A stretch of DNA of 42,183 nucleotides from an uncultured Roseburia sp. (GTDB taxonomy: Bacteria; Bacillota; Clostridia; Lachnospirales; Lachnospiraceae), in the NCBI GenBank assembly GCA_947088345.1, contig CAMUGE010000028.1, forward strand, positions 1-42,183, written 5' to 3'. This document shows positions 17,553 through 23,154 of this stretch, piece after piece. The notes under the pieces are model-generated. The model did not search any database, was not told the DNA's origin, and saw only the letters and a program-made list of their open reading frames with translations. The position numbers and the translations under genes are program-made. Positions within the stretch are counted from its first letter, which is position 1, and each line of letters opens with the position of its first letter.

Positions 17553-19268
17553 ATGTCAACAAAAGCGTATTATCCAATCAGCGAGATTGGCGCCGGAAAA
17601 ACAGGTTTTTCCAAAACGAGATCTATTATAGAGGCTGCGTTTTATGGCAACAATGTCGTAAAAGTAAACACATTAAAAGAAGCTTACCAGTTAGCGAAAA
17701 ATTCTCCGGGAACAATCGTGACAGATATGCCGGTGAAAGACGGCGAGACATTTGGTCTTGAGAAAGATGCAAAAGTGTTATTGTTTAACGATGGCGCGGT
17801 AACGGGACGTTATGCTGCAGCACGCCGGATTAAAGGCGAGCCGGGGGTTGACAATACAAAATTGGACAAAGTGGTAATGGACGCCGTTTATGAGACAAGA
17901 TGGAAAACGCTTTACCACGCAGAGTGCTTTATCGGGCTTGATCCGGAATTTATGGTAAAAGCACATCTCCTTCTTCCGGAAGGCGAGGAGAATATCCTCT
18001 ATAACTGGATGTTAAACTTCCAGTATATGTCTGATGAATATGTAAAGATGTACAAAAATTCCAAACCGATTGCAGACGGCAAGGAGCCGGATATCTATAT
18101 TTTCTCAGATCCGCAGTGGGCTCCTCATGATGCGCCGGATGTAGATTATAGCTGCTTAAGCGATCCGCTGACACTTTGCTATTTTGATACGGATCAGAAC
18201 TGTGCGGCAATTCTTGGTATGAGATATTTTGGCGAGCACAAAAAAGGAACGCTTACCATGGCATGGGCGCTTGCAAACAGAAACGGATACGCTTCCTGCC
18301 ACGGCGGACAGAAAGAGTACACGCTGGCAGACGGTTCCAAATTTGTAGCTTCCGTATACGGTCTGTCAGGTTCCGGTAAATCGACACTGACACATGCAAA
18401 ACACGGCGGCAAGTATCCTGCGATCAAAGTACTGCATGACGATGCGTTTATAATTAATACGGATTCCTGTGCATCTATCGCATTGGAGCCGACATATTTT
18501 GATAAGACGGCAGATTATCCGACCGGGTGTCCGGATAACGAATATCTGCTCACGGCGCAGAACTGCTCCGCAACAATTGATGAGAACGGGAAGATCCAGC
18601 TTGTCACAGAGGATATCAGAAACGGCAACGGACGCGCGATTAAGTCCAAATTATGGTCGCCGAACCGCGTTGATAAAATTGACGCGCCGGTTAATGCTAT
18701 CTTCTGGATTATGAAAGATCCGACGATCCCGCCGGTACTCAAATTAAAGGGTTCCGCACTTGCATCCGTAATGGGCGCTACGCTTGCAACAAAAACATCC
18801 ACTGCAGAGCGCGTGGCTGCCGGGACAGACTTAAATGCACTTCGTATTGTACCGTATGCAAATCCGTTCCGGACATATCCGCTTGTGAATGATTACGAGA
18901 AATTCAAGAAGCTGGTAGAAGAAAAAGACGTTGCATGTTATATCGTCAATACCGGTGATTTTATGGGAACGAAATGTAAACCGGCTGATACGCTTGGCAT
19001 TCTTGAGACGATTGTAGAGGGTAAGGCAAAATTTGAGCAGTGGGGACCGTTTGAAGATATTGAGATTATGAACGACTGGTCAGGAAAGACTGCTGATTTC
19101 ACACCAAATCTTGGCGACAAAGATTATGTTGCGGCGTTAAAGAACGCAATGCAGAACCGTGTAGATGCAGTCGAAGGTTTTGCAACAAAGAAAGAGGGTT
19201 ATGATAAACTTCCGGATGAAGCTCTTGCAGCATTAAAGAAACTGGTAGATGAGGCGTCTTCTCTGTAA
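17553..19268 (+). CDS. pckA: Phosphoenolpyruvate carboxykinase (ATP)
   Basis: A 571-residue enzyme linking oxaloacetate and PEP with ATP/ADP. The kinase-1a P-loop is GLSGSGKST (about residues 270-278), preceded by the MAWALANRNGYASCHGG region and followed by the metal-binding IKVLHDDAFIINTD. In gut anaerobes it often runs toward oxaloacetate formation during fermentation, which is an inference here. It is slightly longer than the E. coli enzyme (about 540). The start follows GGGAGGA. It is monocistronic with its own promoter and terminator. Confidence 0.95.
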   Translation: MSTKAYYPISEIGAGKTGFSKTRSIIEAAFYGNNVVKVNTLKEAYQLAKNSPGTIVTDMPVKDGETFGLEKDAKVLLFNDGAVTGRYAAARRIKGEPGVDNTKLDKVVMDAVYETRWKTLYHAECFIGLDPEFMVKAHLLLPEGEENILYNWMLNFQYMSDEYVKMYKNSKPIADGKEPDIYIFSDPQWAPHDAPDVDYSCLSDPLTLCYFDTDQNCAAILGMRYFGEHKKGTLTMAWALANRNGYASCHGGQKEYTLADGSKFVASVYGLSGSGKSTLTHAKHGGKYPAIKVLHDDAFIINTDSCASIALEPTYFDKTADYPTGCPDNEYLLTAQNCSATIDENGKIQLVTEDIRNGNGRAIKSKLWSPNRVDKIDAPVNAIFWIMKDPTIPPVLKLKGSALASVMGATLATKTSTAERVAAGTDLNALRIVPYANPFRTYPLVNDYEKFKKLVEEKDVACYIVNTGDFMGTKCKPADTLGILETIVEGKAKFEQWGPFEDIEIMNDWSGKTADFTPNLGDKDYVAALKNAMQNRVDAVEGFATKKEGYDKLPDEALAALKKLVDEASSL

Positions 19269-19376: not shown

Positions 19377-19405
19377 TTGCGGATCTGGACATGATAAAGT
19401 ATAAT
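19377..19405 (+). promoter_or_regulatory. Promoter of the 6S-like RNA locus
   Basis: TTGCGG (19377-19382), 17-nt spacer, TATAAT (19400-19405). The transcript would begin near 19412. Confidence 0.75.
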
Positions 19406-19411
19406 GAAAGA

Positions 19412-19625
19412 CATGAAAAGCTTTCATTAAAGAAAAAGCCTGAGGTGTTCGATACCCTGCATTTTTGAACCTACATTTACTTTTATGGGATTCCTATATT
19501 CTCAAGCGGATGTCAGGCCATCAGTACCTCTGTAGTACACGAGCAGTGGAAGGCAGAAACTTGTATGCGGTTACCCACCTGGCGCAAGCTAGGAGTCAAA
19601 AACGCAGGAAACGGCATTTTGGGTT
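19412..19625 (+). ncRNA. ssrS: 6S RNA candidate
   Basis: No protein frame with a start signal fits this 214-nt stretch. It folds as one long irregular rod. CCTGCATTTTTGA (from about 19456) pairs with TCAAAAACGCAGG (from about 19596) with one mismatch. A small hairpin, CCTGGC-GCAA-GCTAGG with a GNRA loop (about 19578-19593), sits on the 3' side just inside this stem. TGGG and TTCC on the 5' side face CCCA and GGAA on the 3' side, and GTAC/GTAC closes the tip. A rod with a central bubble and a 3'-side hairpin is the known 6S design, which mimics an open promoter to bind RNA polymerase. The segment CCTGAGGTGTTCG near the 5' end also resembles known 6S starts. The 3' boundary is uncertain because no terminator lies here; the nearest is at 19813-19845. 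Confidence 0.65.
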
Positions 19626-19803
19626 TTACAGAAGAATAGAAAGCAACAAAAGACGATACCGTACAGAAGATTGATGAAGTACAGAAGAAATCTACCGTAC
19701 AGAAGATGTGGCATAAGGTTACAGAAGAATCAGGATACGGCACAAAAGCTATTTCAATACAAAAGCGATTCTGAATTACAAAAGTATTTGGAATTGACAA
19801 AAG
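19626..19803 (+). repeat. Array of ten ACARAAG motifs
   Basis: The heptamer ACARAAG (R = A or G) starts at 19628, 19646, 19663, 19681, 19699, 19721, 19742, 19759, 19778 and 19797. The spacing is 17-22 nt, most often 17-19. Six consecutive copies have the fuller form (G/T)TACAGAAGA or close to it; the last four have ACAAAAG. The intervening sequence is not conserved. No convincing reading frame crosses the array on either strand. It lies between the 6S-like RNA and a terminator, so it is probably transcribed as an RNA tail. The regular spacing suggests repeated protein or RNA binding sites. Confidence 0.8.
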
Positions 19804-19812
19804 ACAAGGAGG

Positions 19813-19845
19813 AGCTGCCTTAGAAAAGGCAGCTTCTCTCTTTTT
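19813..19845 (+). terminator. Terminator after the ACARAAG array
   Basis: AGCTGCCTT (19813-19821) pairs with AAGGCAGCT (19826-19834), followed by a T-rich tract to 19845. It ends the transcript carrying the 6S-like RNA and array, just upstream of the SpoIID-like gene. Confidence 0.85.
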
Positions 19846-19878
19846 AAACGGAAAGGCATTCCGACAAGGAGGATCGTT

Positions 19879-22113
19879 TTGAGGGCAAAAAGGAAAAAGA
19901 TTTATTTGATTATATTATTAGCGCTGCTTGCAGTTATACTTGTTTTTCTCTTCCTGATCAAAATACAGTCAAACGGGATCGCGTATGAGGAAAAGTATTC
20001 CGCGGATTGGGTGGGGCTTGCAGAAGTATCGGCAGAATTATCCTCCGGCGCTTTTTTGGAAATTGACTGGAAAGAGGTTTTGGGTGAAAAGAAAGATAAC
20101 TGTCTGACGCGTGCGGATGTCCGGCTTATTGCAGAAAATCTTGGCGTTTCCGAGTACATAGAGCTTCCTGGTTTTTGGAAACGTCATGTGGTGACCAGAG
20201 CAGAGTGGAACACAGTGTTTCGGCAGATGCTTGACTATCTGGATATGAATGAGGTCGTCTCAGAAGAGACATTTCTTGTGCTGGATCTGATGGAGGCGGA
20301 CGGCAGGAATGTGCTGGTGACAAATAAAGGGGATTACTTTACTGCGCTGTCGATTCCATTTTTTGAGAAGTGGCAGTCTTACCGGATCTATGCATCAGGC
20401 GATACATGTCTTGGCATTGTTTCCTTTTCGGAGGAAGAGGAGGAGGTAAAAGATGCTTATTTAAAACAGATGACTGCCGATTCAGTAACATTTCTGTATC
20501 AGGGCGCGCAGTATCAGATTCAGGCAGCGTCACAGAGTGTGCTGGAACCCGGCGTCTGTGATTTTGTATTTTTAAATCGGGAAATTACTACAATTCGTGA
20601 AAAGCGGGATGCAATCAATGGAGATCTGCTTTCCTATGACGAAGAGTTTATAGAGATAGAGGGTTACGGTAAAGTCAGCCATGACGGAAAGATTCCGGTC
20701 TATCGGACATACGGGGAGGTAGCCGAGAAATCCATATCGGATGTGGTGCTTGGAAATATGGAGCTTACATATATTACAGGAGGAGAGAATGTCTGTGCTA
20801 TTTTGTTAAAACAGCCGGCGAATATAGCTGATATACGTGTGCTTCTCCTGTCGGACGGCGGTAAATTCCGCGATGAGGTGTATCTGAAGTGCAGTACAGA
20901 TTCGTCTGTGCGCTTTGGGGAGTCGGTTTCGGATGCCGCTGCGATGCAGCTTTTGTCGGCATCAGCTTATTTTGGCGGGGGCGGAAGCGAAACGCTTGTT
21001 TTGGAGCCGAAAGATCCCGGTGCACAGATCTATCTCTGTGACGGCGACGGCAACTCTGTTTCTAACGGCTATGCAGGTACAATGGAAGTCAGGAAGATGC
21101 CGGATGGATATACGGTTGTCAATGAGGTGCCGTTTGAGCAATACCTTTATGCTGTTGTTCCGAGTGAGATGCCGTCAACTTTTGCGCCTGAAGCATTAAA
21201 GGCTCAGGCAGTGTGCGCGAGAAGTTATGCTTATGGGCAGCTGATGGCGGCTGACCTTGCGGCGTATGGCGCGCATATCGACGACAGCACATCCTATCAG
21301 GTTTACAATAAAGTGGCTCGCACACAGTCGACGACGGATGCTGTTGACGCGACATGCGGGCAGGTACTGACTTATCAGGGGAATGTAGTGTCCGCTTACT
21401 ACTTTTCCACGTCTATGGGTTATACGGGAACGGCGGATATATGGAATGTCGATGATCCCGCCCCTATGGCTTATTTACAGCAGGCATGTTTGAATGAGAA
21501 TCCGTTTGACGGGGATCTTTCAACAGAAGATGGCTTTGCAGCATATATTGCAACAACACAGAACGGATATGACAGTGATATCAAATTTTACCGGTGGAGC
21601 GCCACGGCTGATTTTCGCGATAAAACGGTTTCGATCAATGAAATTATAGAAGCGCGCCGTTTAGTTTCGGAAAAAAATATTCAGATTGTAAAACAGGGCA
21701 GTGAAGAGCCGCAGGAGTCTTTGGAAGGATTGGGAGCTGTGACCGGGATAAGTGTACAGCAGAGAAACAGTTCCGGGGCGGTTATTACGCTGTGCTTACA
21801 GTATGAGCACGGTTCTGTGCTGGTAAAAACCGAATATAATATACGTAAGATACTGGGTGTATGTCTGAATAAAATCACATTTGCCGACGGAACCGAAAAA
21901 GAGGGGGATACCATGCTTCCGAGCGCATACACGACGGTGGAACAACAGGCGGACGGGACGCTTATTCTGCGCGGCGGGGGATACGGACACGGCCTTGGAA
22001 TGAGCCAGAACGGAGCAAACGGCATGGGAAAGAGCGGCAAATCATATACCGATATATTGAATTATTTTTATCGGGATATTGTAATTGAGGAAATGGGAAA
22101 TATTCTTCCCTAA
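19879..22113 (+). CDS. SpoIID/LytB-domain protein, 744 aa
   Basis: The start is TTG 19879, 6 nt after AGGAGG. A basic N terminus and one membrane helix (about residues 8-28) anchor it with the rest outside. The SpoIID domain lies at about 400-740, with LYAVVPSEMPSTFAPEALKA (Glu430 is the conserved and presumed catalytic residue), AVCARSYAY and the end GYGHGLGMSQNGANGM (about 701-716). SpoIID enzymes are lytic transglycosylases that act on peptidoglycan strands lacking stem peptides, in spore engulfment. This protein is about twice the usual length because of some 370 extra N-terminal residues of unclear fold. It may therefore be a LytB-like wall enzyme rather than the sporulation SpoIID. No promoter was clear. 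Confidence 0.85.
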   Translation: MRAKRKKIYLIILLALLAVILVFLFLIKIQSNGIAYEEKYSADWVGLAEVSAELSSGAFLEIDWKEVLGEKKDNCLTRADVRLIAENLGVSEYIELPGFWKRHVVTRAEWNTVFRQMLDYLDMNEVVSEETFLVLDLMEADGRNVLVTNKGDYFTALSIPFFEKWQSYRIYASGDTCLGIVSFSEEEEEVKDAYLKQMTADSVTFLYQGAQYQIQAASQSVLEPGVCDFVFLNREITTIREKRDAINGDLLSYDEEFIEIEGYGKVSHDGKIPVYRTYGEVAEKSISDVVLGNMELTYITGGENVCAILLKQPANIADIRVLLLSDGGKFRDEVYLKCSTDSSVRFGESVSDAAAMQLLSASAYFGGGGSETLVLEPKDPGAQIYLCDGDGNSVSNGYAGTMEVRKMPDGYTVVNEVPFEQYLYAVVPSEMPSTFAPEALKAQAVCARSYAYGQLMAADLAAYGAHIDDSTSYQVYNKVARTQSTTDAVDATCGQVLTYQGNVVSAYYFSTSMGYTGTADIWNVDDPAPMAYLQQACLNENPFDGDLSTEDGFAAYIATTQNGYDSDIKFYRWSATADFRDKTVSINEIIEARRLVSEKNIQIVKQGSEEPQESLEGLGAVTGISVQQRNSSGAVITLCLQYEHGSVLVKTEYNIRKILGVCLNKITFADGTEKEGDTMLPSAYTTVEQQADGTLILRGGGYGHGLGMSQNGANGMGKSGKSYTDILNYFYRDIVIEEMGNILP

Positions 22114-22150: not shown

Positions 22151-22275
22151 CTGTTCACACAGGACTTAGCATTTACTGCAAAGTCCGTACGAAAACGTAT
22201 CTTTTGCAGGTAAAAATCCATTTGCGAAGCAAATTTTGCATGGATTTTTACCTGTTACTGGAACGGAGTGAACAG
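22151..22275. repeat. Palindromic cloverleaf-like intergenic element
   Basis: The outer arms CTGTTCAC (22151-22158) and GTGAACAG (22268-22275) enclose three hairpins. GGACTT/AAGTCC is at 22162-22167/22181-22186. ACG-AAAA-CGT follows near 22189-22198. A long perfect stem of 15 bp pairs CAGGTAAAAATCCAT (22207-22221) with its complement ending at 22254, with TTTGC-GAA-GCAAA inside its loop. It covers most of the gap between the SpoIID-like and YihY-like genes. The layout suggests a small non-autonomous mobile element or a structured RNA. Confidence 0.65.
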
Positions 22276-22302
22276 TACCAAAATAAGAAAGGTTGTTTTT
22301 AT

Positions 22303-23154
22303 ATGTTTTGGAAAATTGCGGGAAGTGTCAAATATTTTACAGAAGAGTGCAAAAGAGATAAGATCAGCGCCTATGCGGCGCAGGCAGCCTTTTTCATTAT
22401 TCTTTCTATTATCCCGTTTTTAATGGTTTTTTCATCACTGCTGCAGTATACGAATGTAACCGAGGGGATGCTGCTTAAGACCATTACAAGGATTATGCCG
22501 GAATATATCGCTCCGTTTCTTGTTTCGTTGATTCATGAGGTTTACAGCCGTTCCATGGGAATTATTTCGGTGACTGCCGTTGCCGCCGTCTGGTCGGCTG
22601 CAAAGGGCATCCAGTATATGGCGGACGGATTAAATTCGGTGCATGATATTGAGGAGCACAGAAACTGGTTTGTGCTGCGTTTCTGGGCTGTTGTCTATAC
22701 AGTCGCATTTATGGCTGCGATTGTAGCCACGCTTTTGTTTCTGGTATTTGGGAATTTTCTGCATGATATGTTGGTAGAATACAGCCCGCTGATTAAAAGT
22801 ACAGTCGATATTTTGTCGCGGTTTCGCGGGTTGTTTATGATTGCGGTACTGATCGTTTTCTTTGATATCCTGTTTACTACACTGCCAAACCGGAAGCTGA
22901 CATTGAAAAGTCAGCTTCCGGGAGCGGCTGTCTGCGGTGTAGCCTGGTATCTGTTTTCCATCGGGCTTTCTGTGTATGTCGATTATTTTAACGGCTTCTC
23001 AATGTATGGAAGCCTTACCACGATTGCGCTGATTATGCTCTGGCTCTATTTCTGCATGTATATTATGATGGTTTCGGCGGAATTAAACGTCGTATTTTGC
23101 GACGGAATCAGGGCGAGCAAGTTTCCGACGATAAAAATTGGGCCCCGCCGTTAA
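22303..23154 (+). CDS. YihY/BrkB-family membrane protein
   Basis: A 283-residue integral membrane protein starting at ATG 22303; the open frame upstream of it runs through the palindromic element. About six membrane helices are visible, including AAFFIILSIIPFLMVFSSLL, FWAVVYTVAFMAAIVATLLF, LFMIAVLIVFFDILF and LTTIALIMLWLYFCMYIMMV. The family marks are the AAQAAFFIILSIIPFL start and the final GxxYGSLTTIALIMLWLY plus AELN segment. The family was once labelled ribonuclease BN by mistake; its real function is not settled. The ribosome binding site is only AAGAAAGG. Confidence 0.9.
   Translation: MFWKIAGSVKYFTEECKRDKISAYAAQAAFFIILSIIPFLMVFSSLLQYTNVTEGMLLKTITRIMPEYIAPFLVSLIHEVYSRSMGIISVTAVAAVWSAAKGIQYMADGLNSVHDIEEHRNWFVLRFWAVVYTVAFMAAIVATLLFLVFGNFLHDMLVEYSPLIKSTVDILSRFRGLFMIAVLIVFFDILFTTLPNRKLTLKSQLPGAAVCGVAWYLFSIGLSVYVDYFNGFSMYGSLTTIALIMLWLYFCMYIMMVSAELNVVFCDGIRASKFPTIKIGPRR

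Follow-up and report, generated by a model that had tools for sequence, protein, structure and literature searches.

The gene for 6S RNA in an uncultured Roseburia sp. is followed by ten short, evenly spaced copies of one motif, and the question raised by this locus is whether such an array is an accident of a single genome or an element in its own right, and in the latter case what might read it. The stretch of DNA analyzed (the window) comprises 42,183 nt of contig CAMUGE010000028.1 in assembly GCA_947088345.1; the features surrounding the array are collected in Table 1. A first-pass annotation, made from the sequence alone, had described ten ACARAAG copies at 17–22 nt steps on the sense strand, a 6S-like RNA in front of them and a terminator directly behind, and all three descriptions were borne out by motif search, covariance model and consensus scan, respectively. 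The 6S assignment is secure in that the match to RF00013 scores 67.7 bits against a gathering score of 46.4 and spans model positions 1–187 of 187. It is the only 6S match in the window's genome, and the first ACARAAG overlaps its 3′ edge by two bases. An Rfam 15 scan of positions 19380–19900, with E values of up to 1 accepted, detected no family except 6S.

Table 1. Features of the 6S RNA locus and its surroundings, in window coordinates.
Feature	Position	Strand	Basis
PEPCK gene	17553-19268	+	PF01293
TTGCGG, 17-nt spacer to TATAAT	19377-19382	+	by eye
TATAAT, likely -10 box of the 6S unit	19400-19405	+	by eye, below scan threshold; presumptive
6S RNA (SsrS)	19434-19629	+	RF00013, 67.7 bits
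Ten-copy ACARAAG array	19628-19803	+	motif search
Intrinsic terminator: 14-pair hairpin (19808-19839) and T-rich tail (CTTTTT)	19808-19845	+	consensus scan
SpoIID-domain protein gene, 744 aa, neighbor	19879-22113	+	PF08486, 99.7 bits
BrkB-family membrane protein gene, two genes after 6S	22204-23154		PF03631

The ten copies begin at positions 19628, 19646, 19663, 19681, 19699, 19721, 19742, 19759, 19778, and 19797, giving steps of 18, 17, 18, 18, 22, 21, 17, 19, and 19 nt, five of which are not multiples of three. When the whole genome was searched with the triple pattern ACARAAG-N8-16-ACARAAG-N8-16-ACARAAG, eight forward matches were obtained and none in reverse or with a backward control; since eight is the number expected from ten such copies, all of them derive from the window array. 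Pairs of ACARAAG matched 15 times, nine times in the array and six times elsewhere, and the backward control matched seven times. The spacers had been described as unrelated to one another; this is not entirely so, in that two have TACCGT in common.

Relatives were used to define the motif. Altogether 140 6S loci were fetched, 50 from the same genus (window included) and 90 from the family, the latter being 30 plus 60 loci picked among the matches listed (380 genomes match) and therefore biased toward high 6S scores. Of these loci 130 could be parsed, 110 received a terminator call, 55 had gaps of 35–260 nt between 6S RNA and terminator, and 51 were left after removal of near-copies, 48 of which hold sites called by expectation maximization (EM). 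Word counts and the EM motif over these relatives converged on (R)UACNNARGA, of which ACARAAG is one version; the ten copies first noticed are thus present, but the motif proper is broader, and its form ACNRARGA is fitted by seven of the ten window copies. In the called sites, whose selection by score accounts for part of the effect, the C and G are nearly invariant; any of the four bases occurs at the third position, and purines prevail at the fourth (A, G or T) and at the sixth. The 51 nonredundant gaps contain 164 sense sites and no antisense site, against a dinucleotide-shuffle mean of 8.8 and maximum of 17 in 200 shuffles.

At least two ACNRARGA motifs were found within 220 nt behind 6S RNA in 39 of the 50 genus loci and in 12 of the 90 family loci, the remaining 78 of which have fewer than two, so that many members of the family are without an array. 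Three genus loci (L235, L237 and L238, with 6, 2, and 6 copies) are counted among the 39 and stand outside the motif statistics. A control region further downstream of 6S RNA contained at least two motifs in none of 46 genus and none of 89 family loci, while antisense clusters of at least two were seen behind 6S RNA in one of 50 genus loci, which is one of the three just mentioned, read there on the wrong strand, and in one of 90 family loci.

The association with 6S RNA extends to loci with short gaps. Of 53 such loci, 20 have a single site squeezed between the end of 6S RNA and the terminator, where shuffles give 1.2 on average and at most 7 and the antisense strand gives none, and a site is found at 39 of 84 terminators behind 6S RNA versus 5 of 123 other terminators, four of these five belonging to three 6S loci that had been missed in parsing. 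The latter comparison rules out a generic terminator flank. The arrays thus seem to have arisen by multiplication of a site linked to 6S RNA, and the simplest history is that one such site grew into arrays in part of the family. Behind 6S RNA the gap length grows with copy number (r = 0.69), and copy number varies widely. A different tandem repeat of about 18 nt (the AAGTACATTAAATATCCC type), without UACNNARGA, lies behind the 6S RNA of another genome of the same genus (locus L034, genome G036).

Attachment to 6S RNA, as proposed in the first-pass annotation, is consequently real but not exclusive, since the same motif recurs in arrays within the division operon (dcw), in 3′ UTRs and apparently on its own. 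In other Clostridia the dcw arrays comprise 7–15 copies in three different gaps, always in the sense orientation and with spacing similar to that of the 6S arrays. From 50 dcw gaps cut out by fixed flanking words, 27 were left once near-copies were removed, and these contain 233 sense and 0 antisense sites (shuffle mean 9.7, maximum 18). EM derived the same motif separately from the two unrelated contexts, although the dcw loci were first fetched with TACAAAAGA, so that only variants and extra copies constitute independent evidence there. The commonest site, ACAAAAGA, makes up 64 of 223 sites behind 6S RNA and 192 of 301 in dcw; steps of 15–24 nt account for 146 of 175 and 223 of 274, respectively, and steps below 15 nt for 12 and 6. 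Sites of about nine nucleotides with few steps shorter than 15 nt would fit a protein footprint. The single orientation, the lack of antisense copies and the lack of a reading frame argue that the element acts as RNA. A coding repeat was rejected as an explanation: many family-wide ACARAAG triples look coding, with steps in multiples of three (by eye), but neither the arrays behind 6S RNA nor those in dcw have this appearance.

When the genome collection was scanned for three perfect copies, the 117 stretches listed comprised 67 between mraZ and rsmH, 5 between rsmH and an ftsL-like gene and 4 behind 6S RNA, with 24 others overlapping a frame of at least 90 codons and 17 others without one; these counts are not frequencies, and many of the other stretches are coding or unrelated repeats, although one of the 24 (L135) is a record of the standalone array L046, counted here as real. 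No mraZ or rsmH match lay opposite to the array strand among the 117. In an even sample of 392 genomes of the class, 15 had a match and the backward control had none; seven of these arrays lie behind rsmH (families f50, f27, and f62), five between mraZ and rsmH (f36 and f54), one before mraZ (f49) and two elsewhere. Pfam verified MraZ and RsmH in L314 and L309, the two loci tested, while the name ftsL-like rests on position behind rsmH and on FtsL/DivIC matches below the cut-off in the two proteins tested (18.3 of 22.9 and 21.4 of 28.9 bits). The array has therefore come to occupy three places in dcw in different families. Where the array precedes rsmH (L103–L219), many Clostridia MAGs share a CAGCTGGTA...TACCAGCTG-type hairpin between it and the start of that gene, in some cases followed by a U tract and in others not.

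The 6S and dcw placements look like alternatives to each other. No array was detected in the mraZ-rsmH gap or the following gap of 20 Lachnospiraceae, mostly chosen as carriers, nor within 260 nt behind 6S RNA in the class sample, where 13 of the 15 genomes gave a 6S match (one of them scoring below the cut-off). A strict-pair scan of 11 carriers outside the Lachnospiraceae revealed no second array, other pairs being in frames or isolated. In genome G367 an array precedes a terminator upstream of mraZ, with promoter-like sequence in between, and a second array lies behind its 6S RNA (L097); the Lachnospiraceae genome G337, an exception to the rule of one array per genome, has three separate intergenic arrays (L061, L429, and L452). 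Some Lachnospiraceae arrays are apparently standalone, among them L046 and L061, which are immediately preceded by promoter-like sequence, judged by eye, and followed by a terminator-like one; L158 has a promoter-like start at the array, and L047 occurs in a genome without an array behind its 6S RNA (L283). The array of G742, a genome belonging to the genus of several dcw carriers, lies at the end of a gene, and behind it come a terminator-like hairpin and then a convergent frame. When 12 array loci away from 6S RNA were compared with Rfam 15, only two tRNAs reached the gathering score.

Repeats of other kinds were also encountered. A phage origin was rejected, as 39 of 42 viral-contig stretches fall in stop-free frames of at least 156 codons. 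Three viral-contig loci (L348, L355, and L382; 97, 67, and 96 codons) contain intergenic tandem repeats with ACAAAAGA every 15–16 nt and near-identical spacers, unlike the arrays with their diverged spacers; judged by eye, the repeats of L355 and L348 are followed by a terminator-like hairpin. These three cases call for caution, in that they may point to an unrelated or mobile source of such repeats. Repeats with TGTACAAAAGA or CTACAAAAGA occur at several sites per genome in Bacteroides luti (L128, L136, L162, and L171) and Prevotella RGIG5135 (L110, L130, L141, L167, and L176); they are intergenic where read and probably represent unrelated repeat families.

Comparison between relatives indicates that it is the motifs which are maintained. 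In the gapless alignment of the window array with L036, the nearest relative found, 0 of 56 motif positions and 13 of 131 spacer positions differ. Across pairs of 6S arrays the changes amount to 38/356 in motifs versus 206/866 in spacers (p = 7e-8), and across dcw pairs to 65/1090 versus 477/2872 (p = 2e-20), so that spacers vary two to three times more than motifs. Pairs had been formed by a greedy choice on identity, and alignments at 70–80% may have been anchored by the motifs. In nine dcw pairs with at least 88% identity the figures are 19/556 and 175/1540. The contrast is weak or absent in two 6S pairs, L042/L224 (4/24 versus 14/77) and L017/L040 (3/14 versus 11/47). Behind 6S RNA the most constant positions are the C (1/44 changed), the fifth-position A (1/45), the G (2/45) and the last A (0/43), and changes fall mainly on the N and R positions, above all the free third position (14/44); in dcw motifs the third position also changes most (22/138), the remaining changes being thinly spread. 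The notion of a tail of repeated binding sites, raised in the first-pass annotation, gains support from this pattern, a comparison of motifs with spacers having been the check proposed there, and the array is neither a product of chance nor peculiar to the window's genome. Its role as a sponge or scaffold is putative.

Predicted structure was considered for 6S and dcw arrays. In either set pairing is lowest over the core NNAR, part of which may be explained by A-richness alone. Relative to within-spacer shuffles, spacer folding has a mean z of -1.27 in 30 arrays behind 6S RNA and -1.03 in 27 arrays in dcw, and motif openness one of -1.19 and -1.04; real spacers thus fold slightly better and motifs are slightly less open than in shuffles, whole gaps likewise folding slightly better, and for this reason a fully open strand is not claimed. 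Perhaps the additional spacer pairing arises because neighboring GUAC stretches can pair. Local pairing is inconsistent in the register of the motif, the best mean pair probability being 0.03 and 0.04 in the two sets.

Candidate readers were sought in 18 carriers. Hfq was not found in 14 of them, the window's own genome included, and is present in 4; CsrA is present in 12 and was not found in 6 (families f36, f54, and f49). Neither is therefore the common reader, and both an Hfq platform or Hfq-dependent sRNA and a CsrA decoy were rejected. The KhpA/KhpB family (PF13083) is present in 18 of 18, with a longer KhpB-like frame in 17 and a single KH protein found in G367, which constitutes weak support because the family is widespread in Firmicutes. 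No motif cluster was detected in 20 khpA/khpB neighborhoods inspected with autoregulation in mind. In the portions consulted of a study of Streptococcus pneumoniae, EloR and KhpA affect cell elongation and division and the level of FtsA, although a reported FtsA suppression effect was not reproduced by its authors; KH domains are stated there to hold about four bases and EloR and KhpA to dimerize, and their RNA targets were named in 2019 as a future goal (PMC6403258). Enterococcal KhpB has been predicted from RIP-seq, according to excerpts of a further paper, to interact with sRNAs, tRNAs and UTRs (PMC10117718). Excerpts of the literature searched contained no RNA sequence motif for KhpA/KhpB. 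The motif would suit two KH domains acting together, one reading UACN and the other NARGA, and KhpA/KhpB are tentatively put forward as the likeliest candidate.

The explanation preferred here, about evenly balanced between being right and wrong, is that the array serves as a docking strip with many sites for a protein that binds single-stranded RNA, a decoy that perhaps also acts in cis. Each UACNNARGA copy would bind one unit of a sequence-specific protein, for which the KhpA/KhpB (EloR/Jag) KH-domain pair is the leading, if doubtful, candidate. The window array would form the 3′ tail of the 6S RNA, presumably transcribed over its whole length and ended by its own terminator, and the host transcript differs between lineages, being 6S RNA, dcw mRNA, a 3′ UTR or an apparently lone small RNA. 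Action would be chiefly in trans, the array being a decoy supplied in proportion to a transcript that is linked to growth; this is considered likely because host transcripts vary and each of the 11 carriers scanned has one array, and the 3′ UTR array of G742, facing a convergent frame, also speaks for it. Recurrence at three gaps of dcw, which a pure decoy does not predict, suggests possible additional cis control within the division operon.

Cis action could also be the whole of the matter, if proteins bound to the nascent array set the passage of polymerase through the hairpin and hence expression of the downstream gene (SpoIID behind 6S RNA; rsmH, ftsL and dcw elsewhere). The arrays that were read often precede a hairpin or terminator-like sequence and then a gene; a full stop within dcw would silence essential genes, so that read-through there would be partial or regulated; and a SpoIID match follows 6S RNA in 20 of the 30 genus loci with up to 1.5 kb downstream, a count that misses the window's own copy, whose domain lies beyond that range. 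However, the genes behind 6S arrays differ between family loci, SpoIID follows in 8 of 30 family loci, several of them without an array, the array and terminator of G742 face a convergent frame, that of G367 has promoter-like sequence between its terminator and mraZ, and several dcw hairpins have no good U tract by eye. Such an attenuator is accordingly regarded as possible but improbable.

Three further explanations compete with the preferred docking strip. A trailer or processing element, or a neutral tandem-repeat expansion behind 6S RNA, would account for the single site lying exactly between 6S RNA and terminator, for the highly variable copy number and for the plain repeats of the same word on three phage contigs, but it is unlikely given diverged spacers beside retained, slower-evolving motifs and the recurrence of the motif in dcw and apparently alone. 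Were the array a multi-seed antisense RNA, its motifs would pair with sites resembling UCYUNNGUA, whether in mRNAs or in a single partner RNA; the repeated seeds have an open core, and A-to-G changes at R positions would preserve G-U pairs, yet the variable third and fourth positions break pairing inside the nine-base site, which makes this reading decidedly unlikely. Protein sites at the level of DNA are very improbable. The steps do show some helical phasing (resultants of 0.29 behind 6S RNA and 0.21 in dcw at 10.5 bp, and of 0.35 and 0.21 at 11 bp), although steps that vary so little produce resultants of this size by themselves, and the sites keep one orientation relative to transcription, with no antisense site in 78 gaps and no gene opposite among the 117 listed stretches.

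The occurrence of one conserved sequence code in up to about 15 copies, and on two carriers so unlike each other, points to an RNA-binding protein with sequence specificity, in bacteria where Hfq was not found in 14 of the 18 carriers tested. In its fullest form the proposal, which is speculative and rather doubtful, regards UACNNARGA arrays as a class of clostridial RNA regulator not described so far, borne by 6S RNA or dcw and usually present once per genome, that titrates KhpA/KhpB or another single-strand RNA reader and thereby ties growth state to cell-wall growth and division. If true, the role of 6S RNA would extend beyond polymerase binding, a handle would be gained on regulation within the dcw operon, and KhpA/KhpB would acquire an RNA target of the kind that passages of the 2019 study describe as unknown (PMC6403258). 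What KhpA/KhpB bind would then become directly testable with one short RNA.

Several known systems invite comparison. In the window the array extends a genuine 6S gene (RF00013) at its 3′ end, but the Rfam match ends at 19629, and the array lies outside the model and also occurs without 6S RNA. With KhpA/KhpB regulation of division genes it shares the link to division, described for S. pneumoniae in the sections consulted (PMC6403258), and the presence of the family in array carriers. Repeated sites before a terminator in an operon recall TRAP and other multi-site mRNA leaders, although the array nonamers are mostly 15–24 nt apart whereas TRAP triplets are separated by 2–3 nt. The CsrA decoys of the CsrB/RsmZ type are non-coding RNAs with many copies of a short motif at steps of about 20 nt, each with an ANGGA core shown in hairpin loops, and the CsrA SELEX consensus is RUACARGGAUGU. 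The arrays resemble them in the repeated short motif, the steps of about 20 nt and the idea of titration, and share RUACA with the SELEX consensus; however, sites ending in GGA number only 24 of 223 behind 6S RNA and 5 of 301 in dcw, there is no consistent hairpin loop, and 6 of the 18 carriers yielded no CsrA. The first-pass annotation knew of no described RNA with this design, and none was found in the open-access papers searched, which likewise held no description of the motif octamer, its matches being chance ones by title, or of mraZ/dcw intergenic elements. The element matched none of the families tested, and because neither motif nor reader nor placement turned up in the material searched, it is regarded here as new. 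By possible function it is nearest to CsrB-type decoys, yet fails their defining tests; if the decoy reading is right, the principle would be a known one.
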